Made by a program: the position numbers and the translations under genes. The notes below the pieces were generated by a model. That model was given only the letters and a program-made list of their open reading frames with translations. It was not told where the DNA came from and did not search any database. Shown here one piece after another: positions 8,614 to 61,631 of a stretch of 64,000 nt of DNA. The stretch lies in the NCBI GenBank assembly GCA_036489885.1, contig DASXEW010000001.1, positions 310,001-374,000 of the forward strand. Direction: 5' to 3'. Position 1 is the first letter of the stretch. Every line of letters begins with the position of its first letter. Source of the DNA: Candidatus Baltobacteraceae bacterium (GTDB taxonomy: Bacteria; Vulcanimicrobiota; Vulcanimicrobiia; Vulcanimicrobiales; Vulcanimicrobiaceae).

Positions 8614-9956
8614 GCGACGCTGCGCTCGATATTGCCGAACGCGGATTGCGTTCGGCGCTCGCGGCCGGTGCGCGCGAAGCCGAAGCAACATGCACGATCG
8701 CACGGCGATTCTCGGTGCGCGCACGCGATACCGAAATCGACAAGCTCGAGCAATCGACGGGTCGCGGGCTCTCCTTGCGCGTTTTCGTCGGCGAACCGGG
8801 CAAGTTGCGGCGCGCGACGCTGTCGACGACCGACCTATCCGGCGACGGAATCGAAATCATTGCAAAACGCGTCGTCGATGCCGCGCATCATGTCGGGCAG
8901 GATCCGTTCGCGGGGCTTCCGGAGGCACGGGGCTCGCTCGACGCCGGCGATCTCGAGATCGACGCTCGTGACGTTGAATCACGTCCCAACGACGAGAAGA
9001 TCGCGGACGCTTTAACACTCGAAAGTGAGGCGCGCGCCTTCGATGCGCGCATCGACAATTCGAACGGATCGTACGTCTCCGACGCGCAGGTGACGCTCGG
9101 CTTCGCGAACTCGAGCGGATCGCGTGCGTCGTATCGTTCGACGAGTGCGTCGATGATGGCTAACCCGGTCGGCCGCGACGGCGAGGCAAAGCGCACCGCC
9201 TACTATTCGACCGCGGCACGCTCCTGGAGCGGATGCGAACGCCCGGTAAAAGTCGCGCGGCGTGCAAGCTCACGCATCTTGGCGATGTTCGGTGCGAGGC
9301 CCATCGCGTCGCAGAAGCTGCCCGTCATCTTCGAGCGCGACGTTGCATCCGCCGTTCTCGGCGACATCTTTGCCGCGGTGAGCGCCGCGAACGTCGCGAT
9401 CGACAATTCATATCTTGCCGACAAGGTCGGAGAAAAGGTCGGCAGCAATTTGGTGACGATCGTCGACGACGGCCGCTTGGCGCGCGGCATGGGGACGTCG
9501 CCGTTTGACGGCGAGGGCGTTCCGACGCGCCGCACCGTCGTCTTCCAGAATGGCGTGCTCAAGACGCATCTTTTCGACACCTATTACGCGCGCAAGCTCG
9601 GAGCGCAAACCACCGGAAACGCGGCCGGCGGCGGCATCGGCCCCAACAATTTCTATCTCGAAGCGGGCGAGCTGAGCCTTGAAGATCTGATCGGACAAAC
9701 AAAGCGCGGTCTGCTCGTGCTCTCCATCATCGGCTTCGCAACGGAGTGTGCAACGGGAACCTATAGCCGCGGCGTCAGCGGCGTGCTCATCGAGAACGGC
9801 GAATTGTGTCAGGCCGTCGACGGCGTCACGATCGCGTCGAATTTTCTCACCGGCATTTTGCCGGGGATCGATGCGCTCGCGAGCGATCTACGTTTCGATT
9901 CCGCAATCGCCGCGCCGTCCTTCCGCGTCGCCGAAATGACCGTCTCAGGGGAGTAG
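8610..9956 (+). CDS. tldE: TldE/PmbA, non-catalytic partner of TldD
   Basis: 448 residues with the same fold as its neighbour but no HExxxH motif, as expected for TldE (PmbA), which builds half of the barrel that admits extended peptides. Family blocks include LARGMGTSPFDGEGVPTRR, GGGIGPNNFYLEAGE and ECATGTYSRGVSGVLIENGE. It is the last gene of the coupled operon that begins at 893. A half copy of the dispersed palindromic repeat follows the stop immediately. Confidence 0.95.
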   Translation: MSDAALDIAERGLRSALAAGAREAEATCTIARRFSVRARDTEIDKLEQSTGRGLSLRVFVGEPGKLRRATLSTTDLSGDGIEIIAKRVVDAAHHVGQDPFAGLPEARGSLDAGDLEIDARDVESRPNDEKIADALTLESEARAFDARIDNSNGSYVSDAQVTLGFANSSGSRASYRSTSASMMANPVGRDGEAKRTAYYSTAARSWSGCERPVKVARRASSRILAMFGARPIASQKLPVIFERDVASAVLGDIFAAVSAANVAIDNSYLADKVGEKVGSNLVTIVDDGRLARGMGTSPFDGEGVPTRRTVVFQNGVLKTHLFDTYYARKLGAQTTGNAAGGGIGPNNFYLEAGELSLEDLIGQTKRGLLVLSIIGFATECATGTYSRGVSGVLIENGELCQAVDGVTIASNFLTGILPGIDALASDLRFDSAIAAPSFRVAEMTVSGE

Positions 9957-9976
9957 CCGCTACGCTCGGGATGACA
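9957..9976 (+). repeat. Half copy of the dispersed palindromic repeat
   Basis: The sequence immediately after the tldE stop, CTACGCTCGGGATGACA with a short lead-in, matches the right arm of the copies at 37091-37141 and 55312-55361 and the reverse complement of the left arm at 61589-61631. The left arm is missing here. It lies between two convergent genes. Confidence 0.7.
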
Positions 9977-9987
9977 TGGGGATGCGT

Positions 9988-10737
9988 TTACGACGAAACC
10001 TTATAGATTCGGTCTTCGACTTGTTCGAGATTCGAAAGCATCTTTGGATCGTGGCCGGGGAACCAGCGGCCACCGGAGGCAAGCGTCTCGATCGTCGTAA
10101 ACCCACGCTGATAGTTGTCGTAGTTGTGGATGATCGAGGTCGGGGTGCGCGTTTCGAGATTGGCATAGAAATGCGACGCGTCGCACGCCAGGACCAGCGG
10201 GTTCGATCCCGTGTCAATGACCGTAATCTGATGCCCAGGCGTGTGGCCGCCGACGTGCAGCACCTTGATCGACGGTGAGAAGTTGAAATCGCCGCTCTTG
10301 GCTTTGATCTTTCCTTCGGAACGCAGCCGCCCGATTTGATCGATTGCCGTCGGATCGGCGGATTTGAATGCCGGATGCGTGACGCCGCGCCCCGTGAAAT
10401 ACTCGATGTCATCGCTCTGCACGTAGAAAGTCGCATTCGGGTAACGCTCGGGAACGCAGAAGTGATCGTAATGGAGATGCGAGATTACGATCGACTTCAC
10501 GTCTTTGGCGTCAACGCCAACGCGCGGAAGAAGCTCGCTCGGCGAGAGATAATCGAACACGCCTTTCTCGCCGGCCATCCGTTCCGAAAATCCGGTGTCG
10601 ATCATGACCGTTTCGTTTTTGTCCTTGATCACCCAAAACGGGTAGACGAGTTCGATCTCCTCGGTGCGGTTCGCCAAATTGAACATGTAGTAGTACGGCC
10701 GCTTCGACCGCCCTACGATGCACGCAAAGATATCCAT
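9988..10737 (-). CDS. Metallo-beta-lactamase-fold hydrolase, N-acyl-homoserine-lactonase-like
   Basis: 249 residues. The dinuclear zinc site is complete: HLHYDH at 87-92, GGHTPGH at 163-169, D186 in ACDASHFYAN and H229 in FPGHDP. The N-terminal strand arrangement and the DASHFYAN block resemble AttM/AiiA-type lactonases and related esterases. The substrate may be a lactone signal or another ester, and quorum quenching is only one option. The start ATG at 10737 directly follows the 113-nt conserved element at 10738-10850, so its translation may be under RNA control. It lies downstream of the carboxymuconolactone-decarboxylase-like gene on the same strand. Confidence 0.88.
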   Translation of the reverse strand: MDIFACIVGRSKRPYYYMFNLANRTEEIELVYPFWVIKDKNETVMIDTGFSERMAGEKGVFDYLSPSELLPRVGVDAKDVKSIVISHLHYDHFCVPERYPNATFYVQSDDIEYFTGRGVTHPAFKSADPTAIDQIGRLRSEGKIKAKSGDFNFSPSIKVLHVGGHTPGHQITVIDTGSNPLVLACDASHFYANLETRTPTSIIHNYDNYQRGFTTIETLASGGRWFPGHDPKMLSNLEQVEDRIYKVSS

Positions 10738-10850
10738 CTAAAGGCGCTCCGCCCCGGGCTGCGCGCCCCCCAACTTGAAAGTTGGGGCCCCCAAATGCGC
10801 TCGGCCCATCACCATTTGAAATGGTGTCGCGATTTTTTCGACGGCCTCGC
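10738..10850 (-). promoter_or_regulatory. Candidate structured leader RNA, copy A (upstream of the lactonase-like gene)
   Basis: Read on the minus strand, this 113-nt stretch runs from GCGAGGCC to the base before the ATG and matches 22307-22419 before trxB. Shared blocks are GGGCCGAGCGC, GGGGGCCCC, GGGGGGCGCGCAGCCCGGGG and AGCGCCTTTA. The apical hairpin at 10768-10787 is CCCCAACT, loop TTCA, AGTTGGGG. The flanks GGGCCGAGCGC and GCGCGCAGCCC can pair at 9 of 11 positions. A last small hairpin, GGCG-GAG-CGCC, places GGAG in its loop just before the start codon. A further hairpin CACCATTT-C-AAATGGTG lies upstream in this copy. The position and compensatory changes suggest cis-regulation; the ligand is unknown. 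Confidence 0.6.
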
Positions 10851-10853
10851 AAT

Positions 10854-11237
10854 TCACGCTTTTTGTTTTTCTCGCTCTGCGTAGACGGCCCGCGCGATGC
10901 GGAATGCCTCCGCCGAGACCGGGACGCCGCCGTAAACGCCGGTCTGCAAGAAAATCTCTTTCATCTCTTCCTTGGTTACGCCGTTATTAATTGCGCCGCG
11001 CACGTGAACTTCGAGCTCGTGCCAGCGCCCGAGCACGGTCAGCATCGCGAGATTGAGCATGCTGCGCGTTTTGTGTTCCAAACCGGGACGTACCCAGACG
11101 TTTCCCCAGCAATACTCTTCGGTGAAATCGATGAATGCTTCGGCGAGCGAGTCTCCGGCTGCGCGCTTGAGCATCCCATCGACGTATTCTGCGCCAAGAA
11201 CCTCACGACGGATACGGGCACCCTCTTTGCGATCCAT
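10854..11237 (-). CDS. Carboxymuconolactone-decarboxylase family protein (PcaC-like)
   Basis: 127 residues from the ATG at 11237, chosen because a strong GGAGG ribosome site lies eight bases upstream; the frame continues further but without such a site. The helical core EHKTRSMLNLAMLTVLGRW, followed by HELEVHVRGAINNGVTKEE and IFLQTGVYGGVPVSAEAF, is that of the gamma-carboxymuconolactone decarboxylase group. The AhpD-type CxxC is absent, so a peroxidase role is unlikely. No other beta-ketoadipate genes are here, so the substrate is unknown. It is divergent from the malic enzyme and upstream of the lactonase-like hydrolase. Confidence 0.9.
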   Translation of the reverse strand: MDRKEGARIRREVLGAEYVDGMLKRAAGDSLAEAFIDFTEEYCWGNVWVRPGLEHKTRSMLNLAMLTVLGRWHELEVHVRGAINNGVTKEEMKEIFLQTGVYGGVPVSAEAFRIARAVYAEREKQKA

Positions 11238-11309
11238 TATGTTGCCTCCATAGCTGAGCGGGCTTCGAGCGAGGAGGGTCCTGGACGTGCGCCAATAGAC
11301 CCTTCCGTT

Positions 11310-12752
11310 ATGACTGCCGGTCCCATCGGGTTCACCTTGATAATCCGCGTGGAAGCACCGAACCATCCCGGGGCGTTCGGACTGCTTGCTTCGGCAATCG
11401 GAGATGCCGGTGGCGTGGTCGGCGCCGTCGACGTGCGTTCCGTTTCAAAAGGGACGACTGTACGTGACATCACCGTGACGGTTGGCTCTGAGCAAATTGC
11501 GTCTCTCGTGCGCGCCGCGCTCGAGCGGATCGACGGTGCGCGGGTCGTTAGCGCGTCGGATAGCACGTTTCTCGCCCACCTCGGCGGCAAGATATCGGTA
11601 GAATCCAAGCTGCCCGTGAAAACGCGCGCGGATCTTTCGACCGTCTACACGCCGGGCGTCGCGCGTGTCTCGATGGCAATCGCTGCCGATCCGAGCAAAG
11701 CGTTTCAGTTGACGATCAAACGCAACACCGTAGCCGTCGTCACGGACGGTACGGCCGTACTCGGTCTTGGCGATATCGGTCCGCTAGGAGCTGCACCCGT
11801 AATGGAAGGCAAGTGCATGCTCTTCAAACGGTTTGCGCAGATCGATGCGTGGCCGGTGTGTCTTGACACCAAAGACGTCGACGAGATCGTCGAGACGGTC
11901 GTGCGCATCGCTCCGATATTCGGCGGCATAAATCTCGAAGATATTTCGGCGCCGCGTTGCTTTGAAGTCGAACGGCGATTGATCGAAGCACTCGACATTC
12001 CTGTGATGCATGACGATCAGCATGGTACGGCTGTCGTTGCGCTCGCAGCCTTGATCAACGCAGTTGCCGTCGTGGGTAAAGATCTCGCCGACATGCGGAT
12101 CGTCGTTGCAGGCGGCACGGGCTCAGCCGGAACTGCGACGATCAAGTTGCTACAGCTGGCCGGCGTCGGCGACATCATCGCGGTCGGACGCGAGGGAGTC
12201 ATCAACCGCAAAGAGCGTTACGAGCCCACACACATAACGTGGCTCGCGCAAAATACGAACCGCGAGAATGTCGGCGGTACGCTCAATACCGTTCTGCGTG
12301 GCGCCGATGCGTTCATCGGTGTTTCGGGCCCGGGCGTACTCGAGGCTGACGATCTCAAAAACATGGCTCGCGATCCGATCGTCTTCGCGCTCGCGAACCC
12401 AACACCCGAGATCATGCCCGAGGTCGCAGCACCCTACGTCACCGTTATGGCGACGGGACGTTCCGATTACCCCAATCAGGTCAACAACGTTCTGTCATTT
12501 CCCGGCATCTTCCGCGGCGCGCTCGACTGTAGGGCACGGCGCATAACCGACAACATGAAATTGGCAGCGGCAAAGGCGATTGCTGCAATCGTTGGAGAGG
12601 AACGAAGTGTCGAGTACATTATTCCGAGCGTCTTCGATCAACGCGTCATGGAGGCCGTCGCCAAGGCCGTCTCGCACGCCGCGGTCGAAGACGGCATTGC
12701 TCGTCGGGCCATGGCAGTCGCCGAAGAGGACCACGCTGCCGCTCTCGTTTAG
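11310..12752 (+). CDS. NAD(P)-dependent malic enzyme with N-terminal ACT domain
   Basis: 480 residues from the ATG at 11310. Residues 5-80 form an ACT domain (IIRVEAPNHPGAFGLLASAI), a small-molecule-binding regulatory module. The malic-enzyme N domain follows (VYTPGVARVS, TDGTAVLGLGDIGPLGAAPV, EDISAPRCFEVE, MHDDQHGTAVV), then an NAD(P) Rossmann domain with VVAGGTGSAG and FALANPTPEIMPE. It decarboxylates malate to pyruvate; the ACT domain suggests allosteric control, perhaps by an amino acid. It is divergent from the decarboxylase-like gene across 72 bp that must hold both promoters. The response regulator follows after nine bases. Confidence 0.94.
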   Translation: MTAGPIGFTLIIRVEAPNHPGAFGLLASAIGDAGGVVGAVDVRSVSKGTTVRDITVTVGSEQIASLVRAALERIDGARVVSASDSTFLAHLGGKISVESKLPVKTRADLSTVYTPGVARVSMAIAADPSKAFQLTIKRNTVAVVTDGTAVLGLGDIGPLGAAPVMEGKCMLFKRFAQIDAWPVCLDTKDVDEIVETVVRIAPIFGGINLEDISAPRCFEVERRLIEALDIPVMHDDQHGTAVVALAALINAVAVVGKDLADMRIVVAGGTGSAGTATIKLLQLAGVGDIIAVGREGVINRKERYEPTHITWLAQNTNRENVGGTLNTVLRGADAFIGVSGPGVLEADDLKNMARDPIVFALANPTPEIMPEVAAPYVTVMATGRSDYPNQVNNVLSFPGIFRGALDCRARRITDNMKLAAAKAIAAIVGEERSVEYIIPSVFDQRVMEAVAKAVSHAAVEDGIARRAMAVAEEDHAAALV

Positions 12753-22250: not shown

Positions 22251-22306
22251 CAAAAAATGTCTGTGAAACCCAATCAACCTTCCTGCCTATCAAACAAAAT
22301 GTTGTT

Positions 22307-22419
22307 GCGAGGCCAGCGAGAAAATGGTGACATGATGACAGTGGTGATGGGCCGAGCGCGCTCGGGGGCCCCACGCGTTAGCGTGGGGGGCGCGCAGCCC
22401 GGGGCGAAGCGCCTTTAAG
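22307..22419 (+). promoter_or_regulatory. Candidate structured leader RNA, copy B (upstream of trxB)
   Basis: This 113-nt stretch runs from GCGAGGCC to the base before the trxB ATG and matches 10738-10850 on the other strand. The apical hairpin at 22369-22388 is CCCCACGC, loop GTTA, GCGTGGGG. Compared with copy A, three base pairs differ on both sides so that pairing is kept. The outer stem GGGCCGAGCGC/GCGCGCAGCCC is identical in both copies. The final hairpin is GGCG-AAG-CGCC, immediately before TTTAAG and the ATG. The region between the first block and GGGCC differs more between copies, and the extra hairpin of copy A is not formed here. Confidence 0.6.
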
Positions 22420-23364
22420 ATGGAGAAGTTGATCATCATCGGCTCCGGCCCCGCCGGCTTGACTGCCGCGATTTACGCGGCGCGTGCGAACTTACAGCCG
22501 CTCGTTTTCGCAGGCGCTCTCTACGGCGGCCAGCTGATGCTCACGACCGAGGTCGAGAATTTCCCCGGCTTTCCGGAAGGCATCATGGGCCCGGAGCTCA
22601 TGGAAAACTTCCGCATGCAAGCCGAGCGTTTCGGCGCACGGCTGGAGTTTGTCGACGTCACTGCCGTCGATCTCGGTTCGCGTCCGTTTACGGTGCTGAC
22701 GTCGGAAGGCGAGTTTCGCTCGCAGTCGGTTATTGTCGCGACCGGTGCGAGTGCGCGTTGGCTCGGTATTCCGGGCGAAGAACGCTTACGCGGACGCGGC
22801 GTTTCGACGTGCGCGACCTGCGACGGTGCATTTTTCAAGGAGAAGAGAATCGTCGTCGCGGGCGGCGGCGATTCCGCGATGGAAGAAGCGTTGTTTCTGA
22901 CGCGTTTCGGCTCGCAGGTTACCGTCATACACCGGCGCGACACGCTGCGTGCCAGTAAGATCATGGCCGAGCGCGCTCACAACCACGCGAAGATCGACTT
23001 CATCTGGAATACGGTGATTGAGGAAGTCCACGGCGATCCGGTGATGACGGGCCTAGGCTTGCGCAACCTCATTACCGAGAAAAGCTATGATTTTGAAGCC
23101 GACGCAATGTTCATCGCGATCGGACACGATCCGAACACGTCGATCTTTAGGGGACAGCTGGAGCTTGATCGTGCGGGTTACATCGTTTCGCCGGACGGCG
23201 TTCACACGAACGTCGAAGGCGTGTTCGTTGGCGGCGACGTTTTCGACATCAGGTACAAGCAAGCGATCACCGCCGCTGGAATGGGATGCAAAGCGTCGAT
23301 GGAGGCCGAGCGTTTTCTGGAAATGCTCGAGTCGTCCGAAGCGGAGCAGAGCCTCTCAGCGTAA
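22420..23364 (+). CDS. trxB: Thioredoxin reductase
   Basis: 314 residues. The FAD site IIGSGPAGLTAAIYAAR is at the N-terminus, the redox-active pair is in STCATCDGAFF (CATC), the NADPH domain carries VVAGGGDSAMEEALFL, and GVFVGGDVFDIRYKQAITAA closes the FAD domain. It transfers electrons from NADPH to thioredoxin in the cytoplasm. The start ATG abuts the conserved element at 22307-22419. A monofunctional low-molecular-weight enzyme of usual length. Confidence 0.96.
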   Translation: MEKLIIIGSGPAGLTAAIYAARANLQPLVFAGALYGGQLMLTTEVENFPGFPEGIMGPELMENFRMQAERFGARLEFVDVTAVDLGSRPFTVLTSEGEFRSQSVIVATGASARWLGIPGEERLRGRGVSTCATCDGAFFKEKRIVVAGGGDSAMEEALFLTRFGSQVTVIHRRDTLRASKIMAERAHNHAKIDFIWNTVIEEVHGDPVMTGLGLRNLITEKSYDFEADAMFIAIGHDPNTSIFRGQLELDRAGYIVSPDGVHTNVEGVFVGGDVFDIRYKQAITAAGMGCKASMEAERFLEMLESSEAEQSLSA

Positions 23365-43127: not shown

Positions 43128-45098
43128 TTGGATAACAGGGCGCGTCGTTCAGCACTTTCGGCAGCCGGTTTGATGTTGATCGCCGGATGTTCCGGCGGGG
43201 GGCATACGGTTGGATCTGCGCCGCCTTCGGGCGGAAGTGGAAGTCCGTCCAGCCTTGCAAATGGTGCAAAAGTTACGCTGAGCATTTCGCTCGCGCAGAA
43301 ACAAACGCTCAAGGGCCGACACATCAACTCCAAGGTTAGGCCCGCGATAGCCGGCAAGCGCGTTCCGAGCTTCGTGAGTCCATCGACATATAGCATCGAG
43401 CTTAGCGCTTTCTACGGCGGCGCAAGTGTTTTCAACACGTACGTCTACCTGAACCAGTGCGCTAATTATTCGGCCGTTTATTCGTGCTCGACCAACTTAC
43501 CGGTCGGAACATTCACGATCTACACGAGTCTCTTCGATTCGAACAACAATTGGCTCGGTACGAATCTGTACAGTAGTCCAAGCCCACAAACGATTTACGC
43601 GAACGGAGCCTCTCCGTACGGCAATTATCTGTACGCCGATGTGGCCGGAATCGCACAGTACGTTTTCGTCGCGGCGCCGTTGAATTGCACGACGACTCAA
43701 GGCTCGGGCAACTATGCCGCGATCTATGCGGTCGATGCGGCCGGCAACGAGATCGTAGGCCCGTTGGCAAATCCGATTACGGGTTACGTTGCGGCTGTGA
43801 ACGGCGCAGGGCTGGGGGCGGTCGACCTTTACGAAGCGTCAACGTACGGCTTGTTCGCAGCGGACCATAACACGATTTACGACACGTCCTTGTACCAGCT
43901 GTTTATCAATGAGGCTGGACCCGAGGGCGCGGGCACCCTGTACGGCTCTACCTACAATATTACGGCTTATTTTGGTTCAGGCAGCAACGGAGGCGCCGGC
44001 TTCCAGCTTGGGTCAATCGCGAGCCCCGCGTCTTCGACAATAACAGTCGGTACGTACATCGCGGTCGCGATGACGCCCGGAAGTCCGACGCTGAACGCGT
44101 ACGACATCGAAGAGAGCGTTCCGGCCATCGAGACCTGCAATAGTATTTCGCTCTACCCGTCACTCAGTAGCCCATCGCTCCTGGGTTCTCTCGAGGATTC
44201 GTCGGGTCAGTATCGCGACATCCTCATCGTTGACGGACAGAACATCGTCATGACCGGGTCGGGCAATCCCGTCATCTACCTGACCGGCAGCGTGCCTCAA
44301 GTGGCCTTCCCAATTACGGGGACCTACACGCTGGGCAGCAATGAGACGCCGATCAATCTCTTCGAGTCACCGGACGTTACCGGCCGGTTCTTCGTGATAA
44401 CGAACAACTCGAATAATTCCGGGAATGGTCAAGCCGATCAGTTCCTCGCCACGAACGGCGCCACGGTCTATTCGGGATCGTATTCGTTCCAATTTCCGGC
44501 CACAAACTTATTGCGCATCGCAGGCACGGGCGCAAACAACATCTACGCGCTCTACTACACCAATCCAAGCGGTTCGAATCTGTTGTACGGAGTCGACCGC
44601 ACGAACGGGAATCAGTATCCGACGATTACGGCTTTCACCAGCGGAAGTACGATTTTCGAGCTGTCGCCGGCTGGGCCCACCGTCGACAACATCTTTTTCC
44701 GGGGTTATAACGCATATGCATCCACATATCAGTTGTGCGTCTTCGATGCCCAATCGGGTTTCGGTTCGAACCATTGTGTCCCGGCTGGCGGCTCGAACAC
44801 GAATCAAGGCGCCGTGCGATATGAAACGTTTACGGGACAGATAATGTCAGTCGAGGGAACTTCCATATACGGAGATCCCGCCAACGTAACGCCTTCGAGC
44901 TTTACTTCCGCTACGCTATACACGGGCTTCCCGAATGCGGAGCAGCGATTTACTCCTGGAGAGGCGACGGCTGGATTTATCGGAGTTTATTCGTCGGTAT
45001 CGCCCTATACGACGACGTTCTTGCAGTGGAACGGAAGTGCGTGGGCAAGCGAAGGTTCTATCCAGTGGCCGAACGCCTGGGTGGCACCGCTCTACTAG
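43128..45098 (+). CDS. Large surface lipoprotein, novel family (copy 1)
   Basis: 656 residues from a TTG at 43128, nine bases after AAGGAAG; this start makes the N-terminus MDNRARRSALSAAGLMLIAG line up with copies 2 and 3. The lipobox is LIAGC with Cys21, then a Gly/Ser linker. The mature protein is rich in Tyr, Asn, Ser, Thr and Gly and almost free of Lys, as in secreted beta-rich proteins. Blocks shared with copy 2 include YANGASPYGNYLYADVAGIA, PLANPITGYVAA and NNSNNSGNGQADQFLAT. I recognise no known domain. It is probably on the cell surface; the function is unknown. Confidence 0.85.
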   Translation: MDNRARRSALSAAGLMLIAGCSGGGHTVGSAPPSGGSGSPSSLANGAKVTLSISLAQKQTLKGRHINSKVRPAIAGKRVPSFVSPSTYSIELSAFYGGASVFNTYVYLNQCANYSAVYSCSTNLPVGTFTIYTSLFDSNNNWLGTNLYSSPSPQTIYANGASPYGNYLYADVAGIAQYVFVAAPLNCTTTQGSGNYAAIYAVDAAGNEIVGPLANPITGYVAAVNGAGLGAVDLYEASTYGLFAADHNTIYDTSLYQLFINEAGPEGAGTLYGSTYNITAYFGSGSNGGAGFQLGSIASPASSTITVGTYIAVAMTPGSPTLNAYDIEESVPAIETCNSISLYPSLSSPSLLGSLEDSSGQYRDILIVDGQNIVMTGSGNPVIYLTGSVPQVAFPITGTYTLGSNETPINLFESPDVTGRFFVITNNSNNSGNGQADQFLATNGATVYSGSYSFQFPATNLLRIAGTGANNIYALYYTNPSGSNLLYGVDRTNGNQYPTITAFTSGSTIFELSPAGPTVDNIFFRGYNAYASTYQLCVFDAQSGFGSNHCVPAGGSNTNQGAVRYETFTGQIMSVEGTSIYGDPANVTPSSFTSATLYTGFPNAEQRFTPGEATAGFIGVYSSVSPYTTTFLQWNGSAWASEGSIQWPNAWVAPLY

Positions 45099-45107
45099 TA
45101 GAGTGAC

Positions 45108-47069
45108 ATGAGGAACGCCCGGGCCGCAGCGCTGTCCGCAGCCGGAATGATGTTCATCGCAGGATGTTCCGGCGGAGGGCATTCTGTAGGTTCCGCGCCG
45201 CCCAGCGGCGGCGGCTCAGGCCCATCGAGCCTTACAAATGGCGCGAAGGTGACGGTAAGCATCGCGGTCGCTCAGAAAACGCCGATGAACGGGCGGCGCA
45301 TCAATAATAAGGTTCGTCCGCAAGCTGCGAGCAAACGCGCCCCGGCCTTCATCAGTCCCTCCACATCAAGCATCGCGATTAGCGCCGTCTACAACGGCGC
45401 CGGCGTGTTTACAACAACGATCAATCTGTCACAATGCACCGATTTATACTCAATCTATCAGTGCTCGACGAGTCTTCCCGTCGGAACGTACACGCTCTAT
45501 ACGAATCTCTACGATGGCCCAAGCGCGAACGGTAATTGGCTCGGGACGAATCTTTATCTGAGCCCGGCGCCACAGACGATTTATGCCAATGGAGCAGCGC
45601 CGTACGGCAACTACCTCTACGCCGATGTCGCAGGAATCGCTCAGTACGTTTTCATCGCAGTGCCGAACAATTGCACGACGACGACGGGCTCGAGCGCCTA
45701 CGCCCCAATCTACGCATTCGACGCCGACGCCAACGAGATCGTCGGCCCATTAGCGAATCCGCTCACGGGTTACGTTAGTGCGGGGAACGGCGTTGGGCTG
45801 GGCGCGGTTGACCTCTACGAGAGCTCGACGTACGGCGTCTCTTCCGCGGATCATAATACGATCTACGACACATCGCTGTACCAGCTGTTCGTGTACGAGG
45901 GAGGCCCCGAGGGCTCAGGCGTGTTGTACGGCGCGACGTACAATCTTCCGGCGTATTTCGGCTCCGGTAGTAATGGAGCCGCCGGCTTCCAACTCGGCTC
46001 GATCGCGAGCCCGGCATTCTCGCAATTAACCGTCGGCACGTACATCGCTGTTGCGATGACGCCCGGTAACCCGGTGCTGAACGCGTACGATGTCCAAGAG
46101 AGCGTTCCGGCTATTGCGAGCTGCAACAGTTTCTCGGTCTATCCGTCGCTCAGCAGCCCAGCCTTATTGGGCACTACCGGCGATTCGTCGGGTTCGAATC
46201 GCAATATCATCATCATCGACGGAAATAACATCGATATGATGGGGTCCGGCAATCCCGTTTTCTATGTCGCCGGCGGCGTTCCTCAAGCTGCTTTCACGAT
46301 TACCTCGACCTACACGCTGGGCAGCAACGAAACGCCGATCAATCTCTTTACATCGCCGGACGCCGTTGGCCGCTTCTTCGTCATAACGAATAACTCGAAC
46401 AACTCCGGGAACGGTCAAGCCGATCAATTCCTCGCTACGAGCGCTAATACGGTTTACCAAGGATCGTACCAGTTCTCATTCGCGGCAACGACGTCGACGC
46501 GGATCGCAGGTGAGGGCGGACCCGGACAATACGCGCTTTACTACTCAAGCGGTTCGAATAATCTGCTATACGGCGTCGATCGCACGAACGGCAATGCGTA
46601 TCCGACGATCACCGCGTTTACCAGCGGAACCGTGTACACTCTTCAGCCCTCCGGCGCAGGCTGGAATTATATTTTCTTCCGCGGCTTTGACGCCTCGGCG
46701 CCCCAATACTCGTTGTGCGAGTTCGATCCCACGGTCGGAATCGGAAGCAAAGATTGCCTCTATATCAGCAGTTCGAATTCGAACCCGGTCAGCATTCGCT
46801 ATGACAATTTGTCGGGCGATGTGCTGGTTGTGAACGGAACCGCCATGAAAGAGTACTACGCACACGTACCGCCGGTGAGCCTCGCTCAGACCGGCACCTA
46901 CACTTTTCCGGCGGCGCAAGCGCGATTCGTGCCGGGCGAAGCCGCGCCTGGGTTCGTGGGTGTCTACGACGGAACGTCTACGACGACGTTCATGCAATGG
47001 AACGGCAGTTCTTGGATCAGCGAAGGTTCGGTTCAATGGCCGAATGCATGGCTAGCGCCCCTCTACTAG
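45108..47069 (+). CDS. Large surface lipoprotein, novel family (copy 2, tandem)
   Basis: 653 residues; lipobox FIAGC with Cys20. It is a tandem duplicate of the preceding gene, ten bases downstream, alignable over its whole length and ending alike (SVQWPNAWLAPLY against SIQWPNAWVAPLY). In the block NNSNNSGNGQADQFLAT the two genes differ at several bases, nearly all at third codon positions, so the copies are old and kept under protein-level selection. The composition is the same Tyr/Asn/Ser-rich type. The function is unknown. Confidence 0.85.
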   Translation: MRNARAAALSAAGMMFIAGCSGGGHSVGSAPPSGGGSGPSSLTNGAKVTVSIAVAQKTPMNGRRINNKVRPQAASKRAPAFISPSTSSIAISAVYNGAGVFTTTINLSQCTDLYSIYQCSTSLPVGTYTLYTNLYDGPSANGNWLGTNLYLSPAPQTIYANGAAPYGNYLYADVAGIAQYVFIAVPNNCTTTTGSSAYAPIYAFDADANEIVGPLANPLTGYVSAGNGVGLGAVDLYESSTYGVSSADHNTIYDTSLYQLFVYEGGPEGSGVLYGATYNLPAYFGSGSNGAAGFQLGSIASPAFSQLTVGTYIAVAMTPGNPVLNAYDVQESVPAIASCNSFSVYPSLSSPALLGTTGDSSGSNRNIIIIDGNNIDMMGSGNPVFYVAGGVPQAAFTITSTYTLGSNETPINLFTSPDAVGRFFVITNNSNNSGNGQADQFLATSANTVYQGSYQFSFAATTSTRIAGEGGPGQYALYYSSGSNNLLYGVDRTNGNAYPTITAFTSGTVYTLQPSGAGWNYIFFRGFDASAPQYSLCEFDPTVGIGSKDCLYISSSNSNPVSIRYDNLSGDVLVVNGTAMKEYYAHVPPVSLAQTGTYTFPAAQARFVPGEAAPGFVGVYDGTSTTTFMQWNGSSWISEGSVQWPNAWLAPLY

Positions 47070-60813: not shown

Positions 60814-61605
60814 ATGCAAGACGACGTTTTAAGAATCGGAAAGTACGAGTTTTCTTCGCGACTGATCGTCGGTACCGGAAAGTATCCGACGCTCGACGTG
60901 ATGCAGGAAGCCCATGCAGCCAGCGGCGCCGAGCTCGTCACCGTTGCGATACGCCGGATTCATCTCGACGATCCTAGCGGGAAGACGCTGCTCGACTATT
61001 TGGATCGCGACCGGTACAAGATTCTTCCGAATACCGCGGGGTGTTACAACGCCAAGGAAGCGATCCTCACCGCGCACCTGGCGCGTGAAGCGCTCGGGAC
61101 CGATTTGATCAAGCTCGAAGTGATCGGCGATGCGCAGACGCTTTATCCCGATACGCGCGAAACGATCGCTGCCGCCGAAGCGCTGATTCGCGACGGCTTT
61201 ACGGTGCTGCCGTATGTGGTCGACGATCCGATCGCGTGCCAGCGTCTCGAAGCAGCCGGCTGCGCGGCCGTGATGCCGCTGGCGGCGCCGATCGGCAGCG
61301 GCCTCGGCGTTTGCAATCCGTATTCGATTCGGATCATCAAGGAACGCGCAAAGGTGCCGGTCATCGTCGACGCCGGCGTCGGGACGGCGAGCGATGCCGC
61401 AATCGTGATGGAGCTCGGCGCCGACGCCGTGCTTATGAACACGGGTATCGCGGCCGCGAAACAGCCGGTGCGTATGGCGCACGCGATGCGCTTGGCCGTC
61501 GAAGCCGGACGCGCCGCGTTTCTGGCGGGACGGATGGAGAAGCGGCTTTACGCGAATGCGTCGAGCCCGATGAGCGACCTTATATCGTTGTCATCCCGAG
61601 CGTAG
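60814..61605 (+). CDS. thiG: Thiazole synthase ThiG
   Basis: 263 residues. Blocks are [55 protein letters not shown], the Schiff-base Lys in [17 protein letters not shown], and [17 protein letters not shown]. It forms the thiazole phosphate of thiamine from deoxyxylulose phosphate, ThiS thiocarboxylate and dehydroglycine. The last residues (LSSRA) and the stop codon are supplied by a dispersed palindromic repeat starting at 61589. Confidence 0.95.
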
Positions 61606-61631
61606 GCGCGAAGCGCCGTAGTCGAGGGACA
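61589..61631. repeat. Dispersed palindromic repeat at the end of thiG
   Basis: A 43-bp copy, TGTCATCCCGAGCGTAG at the left and CTCGACTACGG-type right arm reading CCGTAGTCGAGGGACA, with GGCGCGAAGCGCC as a central hairpin. The thiG stop TAG at 61603-61605 lies inside the left arm. Confidence 0.8.

Follow-up and report, generated by a model that had tools for sequence, protein, structure and literature searches.

A dispersed palindromic repeat at start codons in Eremiobacterota, probably mobile and a candidate translationally coupled mini-cistron

The window analysed here, a stretch of 64,000 nucleotides (C1:310001-374000) from a source genome of 3.48 Mb in four contigs (G000), contains two copies of a structured element. 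Both were found to be 113 nt long and to adjoin an ATG, as an earlier note on this DNA had claimed: copy A at 10738..10850 on the minus strand, followed by the ATG at 10737-10735, and copy B at 22307..22419 on the plus strand, followed by the ATG at 22420-22422. Two perfect matches to the core pattern GGGCCGAGCGCNNNNGGGGGCCCC are present in the window, compared to 0.02 expected occurrences in shuffles with three mismatches allowed. Copy A lies between a carboxymuconolactone decarboxylase (CMD) family gene upstream (10854..11366, minus strand) and a metallo-beta-lactamase (MBL) superfamily gene downstream (9988..10737, minus strand, ATG start). Copy B precedes a trxB-like gene (22420..23364, plus strand) encoding a pyridine nucleotide-disulphide oxidoreductase, and its upstream gene is divergent. 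Two further duplications were seen in the window: a second interspersed repeat (TGTCATCCCGAGCGTAG..., 9941-9976 and 61589-61624), unrelated to the element, and a probably duplicated gene (43150-43839 and 45127-45825, 73–77% identical and ~1.98 kb apart).

According to the ORF listing, both copies are covered by a small open reading frame, here called the mini-ORF. In copy A it occupies 10738..10857 (minus strand; 39 aa, GTG start, TAG stop), with the GTG overlapping the TGA stop of the CMD gene (GTGA) and the TAG followed immediately by the ATG of the MBL-fold gene. The mini-ORF of copy B, MLLRGQRENGDMMTVVMGRARSGAPRVSVGGAQPGAKRL, occupies 22299..22418 (plus strand; ATG start, 39 codons) and its TAA stop lies 1 nt before the trxB ATG; the same frame can also be read from an ATG at 22257. 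The ATG boundary proposed earlier stands. On the 5' side, the functional limit is set by the small ORF, whose start codon (10857 in copy A, 22299 in copy B) lies 7-8 nt outside the element as first delimited.

Three helices can be drawn in each copy. P1 of copy A (10799..10850, minus strand) pairs GCGAGGCC (10850-10843) with GGCCGAGC (10806-10799) across a tandem G-A mismatch, is supported by sequence, MFE fold and covariation, and encloses the hairpin CACCATT-TCA-AATGGTG; in copy B (22307..22357, plus strand) the same arms lie at 22307-22314 and 22350-22357. P2 consists of CCCCAACT (10787-10780) and AGTTGGGG (10775-10768) in copy A (10768..10787, minus strand) and of CCCCACGC and GCGTGGGG in copy B (22369..22388, plus strand), and the three compensated pairs that had been claimed between these apical stems are indeed present. 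The last hairpin, P3, is present too; its pairing is better represented by GGCGC-GNA-GCC...GGC-GRA-GCGCC, which places the GGAG inside the 3' side. Its sequence is GGCGC-GCA-GCC-CGG-GGC-GGA-GCGCC in copy A (10743..10767, minus strand), where the Shine-Dalgarno-like GGAG at 10750-10747 falls in the 3' side, and GGCGC-GCA-GCC-CGG-GGC-GAA-GCGCC in copy B (22389..22413, plus strand), which has GAAG at the Shine-Dalgarno position.

While two copies are present in the window, they belong to a much larger set. A BLAST search with copy B returned about 30 clear copies in its own genome, and a covariance model built from 18 own-genome copies, with the ATG excluded, gave 41 matches there at E<=0.01, together with 20 in G001 of the same genus, 20-21 in G009 and 11 in G008. 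In a class-wide search the element was detected in 48 of 117 genomes (E<=1e-6), with 1-32 copies each, and all 48 belong to one Eremiobacterota family (f1). When 84,980 species genomes were scanned for the exact pattern, most of the matches listed were Eremiobacterota/WPS-2 records and the remainder were scattered GC-rich chance matches; the public names of element-bearing genomes are Candidatus Eremiobacterota, WPS-2 or Vulcanimicrobiota, and the genome of the window probably belongs to this phylum as well. In the searches made here, the range of the family is accordingly one family of Eremiobacterota, in which the element forms a palindromic repeat of ~105-115 nt dispersed in tens of copies. 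Some loci carry related or composite structures. Two of them (L149, L178) have another palindromic repeat (CTTCGAC...GCTCAG...AGGCTCC) within the P2/P3 loops, as if by nested insertion, and shorter palindromes comprising only P2 and P3 occur away from start codons (L144-L148 and L150 in G009, L183, L204, L240, L241), frequently close to GGGGTCCCC motifs and in one case in tandem, possibly representing a related intergenic repeat.

The three helices recur throughout the family: P1 closes the 5' domain, P2 has the form CCCC-NNNN-loop-NNNN-GGGG, and P3 has the form GGCGC-GNA-inner stem-GRA-GCGCC and is followed by TTTNAAA. Covariation was confirmed in the 18 own-genome copies, with nine pairs showing double changes and none of 500 shuffles reaching the observed score. 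Across 54 distinct sequences, 98.4% of the P3 cells were paired and 24 showed double changes, compared to 3.5 in shuffles; longer inner stems, e.g. GCATCG/CGATGC, were also found. The outer stem of the earlier note fared less well as a conserved helix: in this genome 81.5% of its cells pair and a single double change was seen, and by inspection it is not retained in other genera, whereas the local stem P1 covaries strongly. The arms of P1 are almost wholly different between genera with complementarity retained (CGAGCCC/GGGCTCG, GCGGCCC/GGGCCGC, GGGGCGC/GCGCCCC, GTGTGCGC/GCGCACAC), and a P1 helix score of at least 7 was reached by 83% of copies versus 10% of shuffles. Folding energies were unremarkable (z -0.5 to -1.2). 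By inspection, the 5' domain has three forms: B (with CC-N-GGGGAAT), A (with tandem G-A mismatches; the window copies are both of this form) and P, apparently a circularly permuted version of A. At nine loci (L074, L075, L097, L151-L153, L160-L162) GGASCGAGC...GCGAGSTC stands against the GCGAGGCC...GGCCGAGC of the window, apparently permuted with the tandem G-A mismatch kept.

The association with start codons was found to hold across the family. An ATG opening an ORF of at least 60 aa lies at offset 6 after GCGCC in 49 of 142 copies, with eight at offset 5, nine at offset 7 and one to four at most others. Among the Eremiobacterota matches listed from a pattern scan with no ATG requirement, the offset was exactly 6 in 26 of 71 and 5-8 in 37 of 71. 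In G000, 29 of 42 model matches are of the start-codon type, and over all copies about 35–40% are not at a start codon. The non-adjacent copies of G000 have no ATG at the offset position; those at tkt and yebC lie at a greater distance upstream and leave a native-looking ribosome site in place. The GGAG in P3, ten nt before the ATG, is present in 81 of 87 gene-adjacent copies and 40 of 55 others (p 0.0013). Two irregularities were noted at individual sites: at trxB in G001 (L118), the element is followed by ATC where the ATG of the gene would be expected, and its mini-ORF is likewise broken, reflecting either use of an alternative start or a draft-sequence error, and three non-adjacent copies in G009 (L138, L139, L143) end a few bases from the stop codon of a convergent gene.

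A cis-regulatory RNA, i.e. a riboswitch, thermometer or protein-binding leader in which P3 hides the GGAG until a signal opens it and a regulon is thereby controlled, would account for the conserved covarying helices, the constant 6-nt spacing and the better preservation of the GGAG beside genes. No Rfam match was found, whether in a gathering-cutoff scan of the whole window or at a permissive cut-off for eight loci, which leaves room for a new class; no literature pairing Eremiobacterota with a riboswitch was found. The identity of the target genes speaks against such a role. Named from sequence by us except where Pfam was run, the downstream genes include trxB, rpmJ, atpA, alaS, valS, fabZ, nadD, ureC, rpsI, rpsE, gyrA, glmS, a mutase subunit gene and many others. 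They share no pathway, with partial exceptions in the recurrence of rpmJ, rimI and rbfA, and the redox link suggested by trxB finds no support among genes as unrelated as rpmJ, atpA, alaS, valS, nadD, fabZ, ureC and the mutase subunit. A redox riboswitch was rejected on these grounds and on the lack of conservation of the sites.

This lack of conservation was evident even within the genus. All six G000 sites compared (atpA, valS, mutase subunit, alaS, tkt, yebC) are empty in G001, and most other relatives tested also have no element there. At atpA, a 4-nt ATGA overlap in G001 corresponds to ATGA-element-ATGA in G000; at the mutase gene, ...TAACATG... in G001 corresponds to ...TAGGTATG-element-ATG... 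in G000; and at alaS the element lies directly before the ATG despite a leader of ~45 nt on offer, so that the old leader is separated from the start codon. The element is not a conserved regulon, because its targets are unrelated and six of six sites are empty in a congener, and the empty orthologous sites point to a mobile repeat. Some targets nevertheless recur: rpmJ carries a copy in five genomes (G000, G009, G019, G005, G049), and rimI, trxB, rbfA, atpA, the mutase subunit gene, purC, ruvA and glmS each do so in at least two. Recurrence across genera, as for rpmJ, rimI, rbfA and purC, favors regulation, and recurrence between genera, as for rpmJ, rimI, trxB, atpA and rbfA, exceeds what purely random insertion would lead one to expect, which leaves room for a selected role. 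At recurrent targets, however, the 5' domain type often differs between genomes, and three interchangeable domains, one an apparent circular permutation, stand before orthologous genes, and regulation accounts neither for the sizeable share of copies away from start codons nor for the selected open frame described below. The earlier proposal of a cis-regulatory RNA is therefore upheld as regards a structured, covarying, Rfam-absent and start-codon-tied element that probably acts in cis on translation, and not as regards a riboswitch-like conserved regulon, since most orthologous sites are empty. We regard a signal-controlled regulon as unlikely, and any regulatory role of the element as one that we infer.

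The earlier reasoning that two stops at an ATG would not be expected of a transposed repeat likewise found no support, as the repeat behaves as a mobile one and its ATG boundary accompanies the mini-ORF. No transposase was identified for the element, and no clear terminal inverted repeats were found when the ends were inspected (TTGTTNCGAG vs GCGCCTTTNAAA). An ATG on both sides of many copies gives the appearance of a target duplication, but the 5' ATG and the 3' start codon look independent: among copies of type B, the 5' ATG is present in 12 of 22 lacking a 3' start and in 16 of 31 having one, which makes a duplicated start-codon target an unlikely origin of the ATG boundary. If a Y1 (HUH) transposase of the RAYT or IS200-IS605 type were at work, the copies would be REP-like palindromes, which resemble this family in being short, palindromic, present in many copies and, in this genus, flanked on the left by a conserved ATG. 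This origin is largely refuted, and in our judgement extremely improbable, as no Y1 transposase was found in the assembled contigs of six element-bearing genomes (G000, G001, G005, G008, G009, G019), though one may lie in missing contigs.

Most gene-adjacent copies have a mini-ORF of ~38-42 codons, running from the 5' end of the element to the downstream start codon, often with its start overlapping the stop of the upstream gene and with a junction of the type ATGA, TAAaATG or TAGATG. In 20 of 30 copies, an upstream gene in the same direction terminates between -14 and +1 nt from where the mini-ORF starts. A start codon immediately precedes the element in 40 copies, and the frame that it opens runs to the downstream start in 28 of them, compared to 1 and 4 for the other frames. 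When the ATG was defined by motif, 43 of 44 gene-adjacent copies were open and 38 of 44 stopped at the gene start (other-frame stops: 5 and 9), while the corresponding counts for other copies were 13 and 9 of 24. About a third of gene-adjacent copies have no clean mini-ORF with a canonical start (e.g. those at rpmJ, L107, and fabZ, L060).

An open frame could have been inherited by chance from the ancestor of a mobile repeat, with gene-adjacent copies surviving as the non-disruptive ones and the mini-ORF having no part in expression. High turnover and the many non-genic copies fit this reading, as does the frequency at which GC-rich frames are open by chance. The copies were compared to a null in which the ends were fixed and the interior was dinucleotide-shuffled. 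In the first set, from which the mini-ORF definition arose, 36 of 53 gene-adjacent copies had the frame (20.2 expected, z 5.4), as did 6 of 37 others (5.8 expected). The definition was then tested on two further sets, partly overlapping in that a few pattern-scan records duplicate first-set genomes and some third-set loci (e.g. in G106, G109 and G110) coincide with pattern-scan records. Among the matches listed from the pattern scan, the counts were 27 of 41 (16.1 expected, z 4.4) for gene-adjacent and 7 of 27 (6.7 expected) for other copies, and in the third set, 40 model-selected loci from further genomes, they were 19 of 27 (11.9 expected, z 3.4) and 3 of 13 (3.3 expected). Non-adjacent copies were thus above the null in none of the three sets. 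In 39 high-scoring copies the contrast was weaker but persisted (20 of 26 vs 5 of 13, p 0.033), at equally good preservation, with mean model scores of 100 bits for gene-adjacent and 99 bits for other copies; decay alone was consequently rejected as the cause of the broken frames in non-adjacent copies.

The stop codon was furthermore found to follow the phase of the frame. TAA or TAG is used in 20 of 23 copies with the TTTAA frame and in 3 of 15 with the other phase, and the TGA of ATGA serves as stop in 12 of 15 other-phase and 7 of 23 TTTAA-frame copies (Fisher 9e-5 and 7e-3). A change of phase by an indel is thus accompanied by a change of stop codon (Fisher 9e-5), and such matched stops are not easily accounted for unless a stop at the start of the gene is selected for. 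Together with the frequent absence of the frame from equally preserved copies elsewhere, this makes the chance origin about as improbable as the regulon. The peptide itself is unlikely to be what matters, because the 3' module is read in two alternative frames; a conserved peptide was rejected, with no relevant Pfam match for five mini-ORF peptides. Another possibility would be a portable ribosome-binding site, whose GGAG initiates the gene directly while the mini-ORF is untranslated. The position of the GGAG in nearly all gene-adjacent copies and the displaced leader at alaS would suit it, but a GC-rich stem lying 6 nt from the ATG sequesters the GGAG, and both the mini-ORF excess and the phase-matched stops are left unexplained, so that we consider it quite unlikely.

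The explanation that we favor, and consider rather probable, is that the element is a mobile palindrome acting as a mini-cistron, with expression of the host gene maintained by translational coupling. Upon insertion, the start codon of the element would replace the old gene start, often overlapping the stop of the upstream gene, and the frame would remain open across the three hairpins until a stop that overlaps or abuts the host gene's start codon. A ribosome on the mini-ORF would melt P2 and P3, releasing the GGAG held in P3, and would terminate at the ATG of the gene and reinitiate there; ribosomes can thus probably translate through the mini-ORF and on into the gene. The gene would stay expressed through this termination and reinitiation, and the element, as a complete coupled cistron, would be tolerated where it precedes a gene. 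The family, its covarying helices, the 6-nt register, the empty orthologous sites and the excess of phase-matched mini-ORFs beside genes are seen in the sequences themselves, while translation of the mini-ORF, coupling as what preserves expression, and transposition are inferred. Whether such elements constitute an undescribed class of mobile elements, inserting at bacterial start codons, including those of operon-internal essential genes, and surviving as complete mini-cistrons that take over the native start site and hand ribosomes to the displaced gene via the stop/start overlap, we hold to be a nearly even matter, leaning slightly towards no.

If the favored explanation is true, a repeat can enter the sites with least room in a compact genome, the operon stop/start junctions of essential genes (e.g. 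atpA, rpmJ, alaS, valS), without destroying them, and the question is raised of how insertion locates a start codon. The natural insertions, empty and filled in related species, would offer material for studying coupling through strong RNA structure. They also carry a warning, as such elements get called riboswitch candidates because they covary and precede start codons.

When compared to known systems, the element resembles uORF-linked riboswitches and leader-peptide attenuators, e.g. the M. tuberculosis B12 riboswitch/uORF (PMC11260477), in combining a short upstream frame with an RNA structure that holds the ribosome site. Here, in contrast, there is no conserved peptide or regulon, and the element is multi-copy and mobile. 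BOX elements and other MITEs share its length of ~100 bp, modular build, hairpin formation, tens of copies and location near genes, some with ORFs. Such modular intergenic repeats are exemplified by the BOX elements of pneumococcus in the review PMC10969869; the present family differs in that neither clear terminal inverted repeats nor a clear target duplication were found and in its exact 6-nt start-codon register. Bacteria are known to couple genes by termination and reinitiation at ATGA/TGATG overlaps (PMC6728339), and such gene pairs have the same stop/start geometry as seen at both mini-ORF ends. When the ATG was defined by motif, the stop of the mini-ORF overlapped or touched the gene start in 38 of 44 gene-adjacent copies; here too, the upstream ribosome would melt structure in front of the downstream start. 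Coupled pairs are, however, ordinary neighboring genes, whereas the upstream cistron here is a mobile hairpin repeat.

The nearest described kind is the Rickettsia palindromic elements (RPE; Ogata et al. 2000/2002), presented in the same review as ORF-carrying palindromes compatible with host genes, with the Wolbachia palindromic elements as a related case (PMC10969869). The likeness, drawn from the published description of RPE, lies in a short (~100-150 bp), palindromic, dispersed and apparently mobile element with an ORF compatible with unrelated host genes. RPE belong to a different phylum and are often inserted within ORFs, where they form in-frame fusions and have a conserved peptide, whereas the element described here lies between genes with its own start and stop, leaves the downstream protein unchanged and, in most gene-adjacent copies, ends with its own stop at the gene start instead of continuing into a fusion. 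Start-codon targeting and coupling, if confirmed, would make it more than a variant of RPE-like elements. Compatibility with host genes is achieved here between genes, unlike in RPE, where it is achieved inside them.
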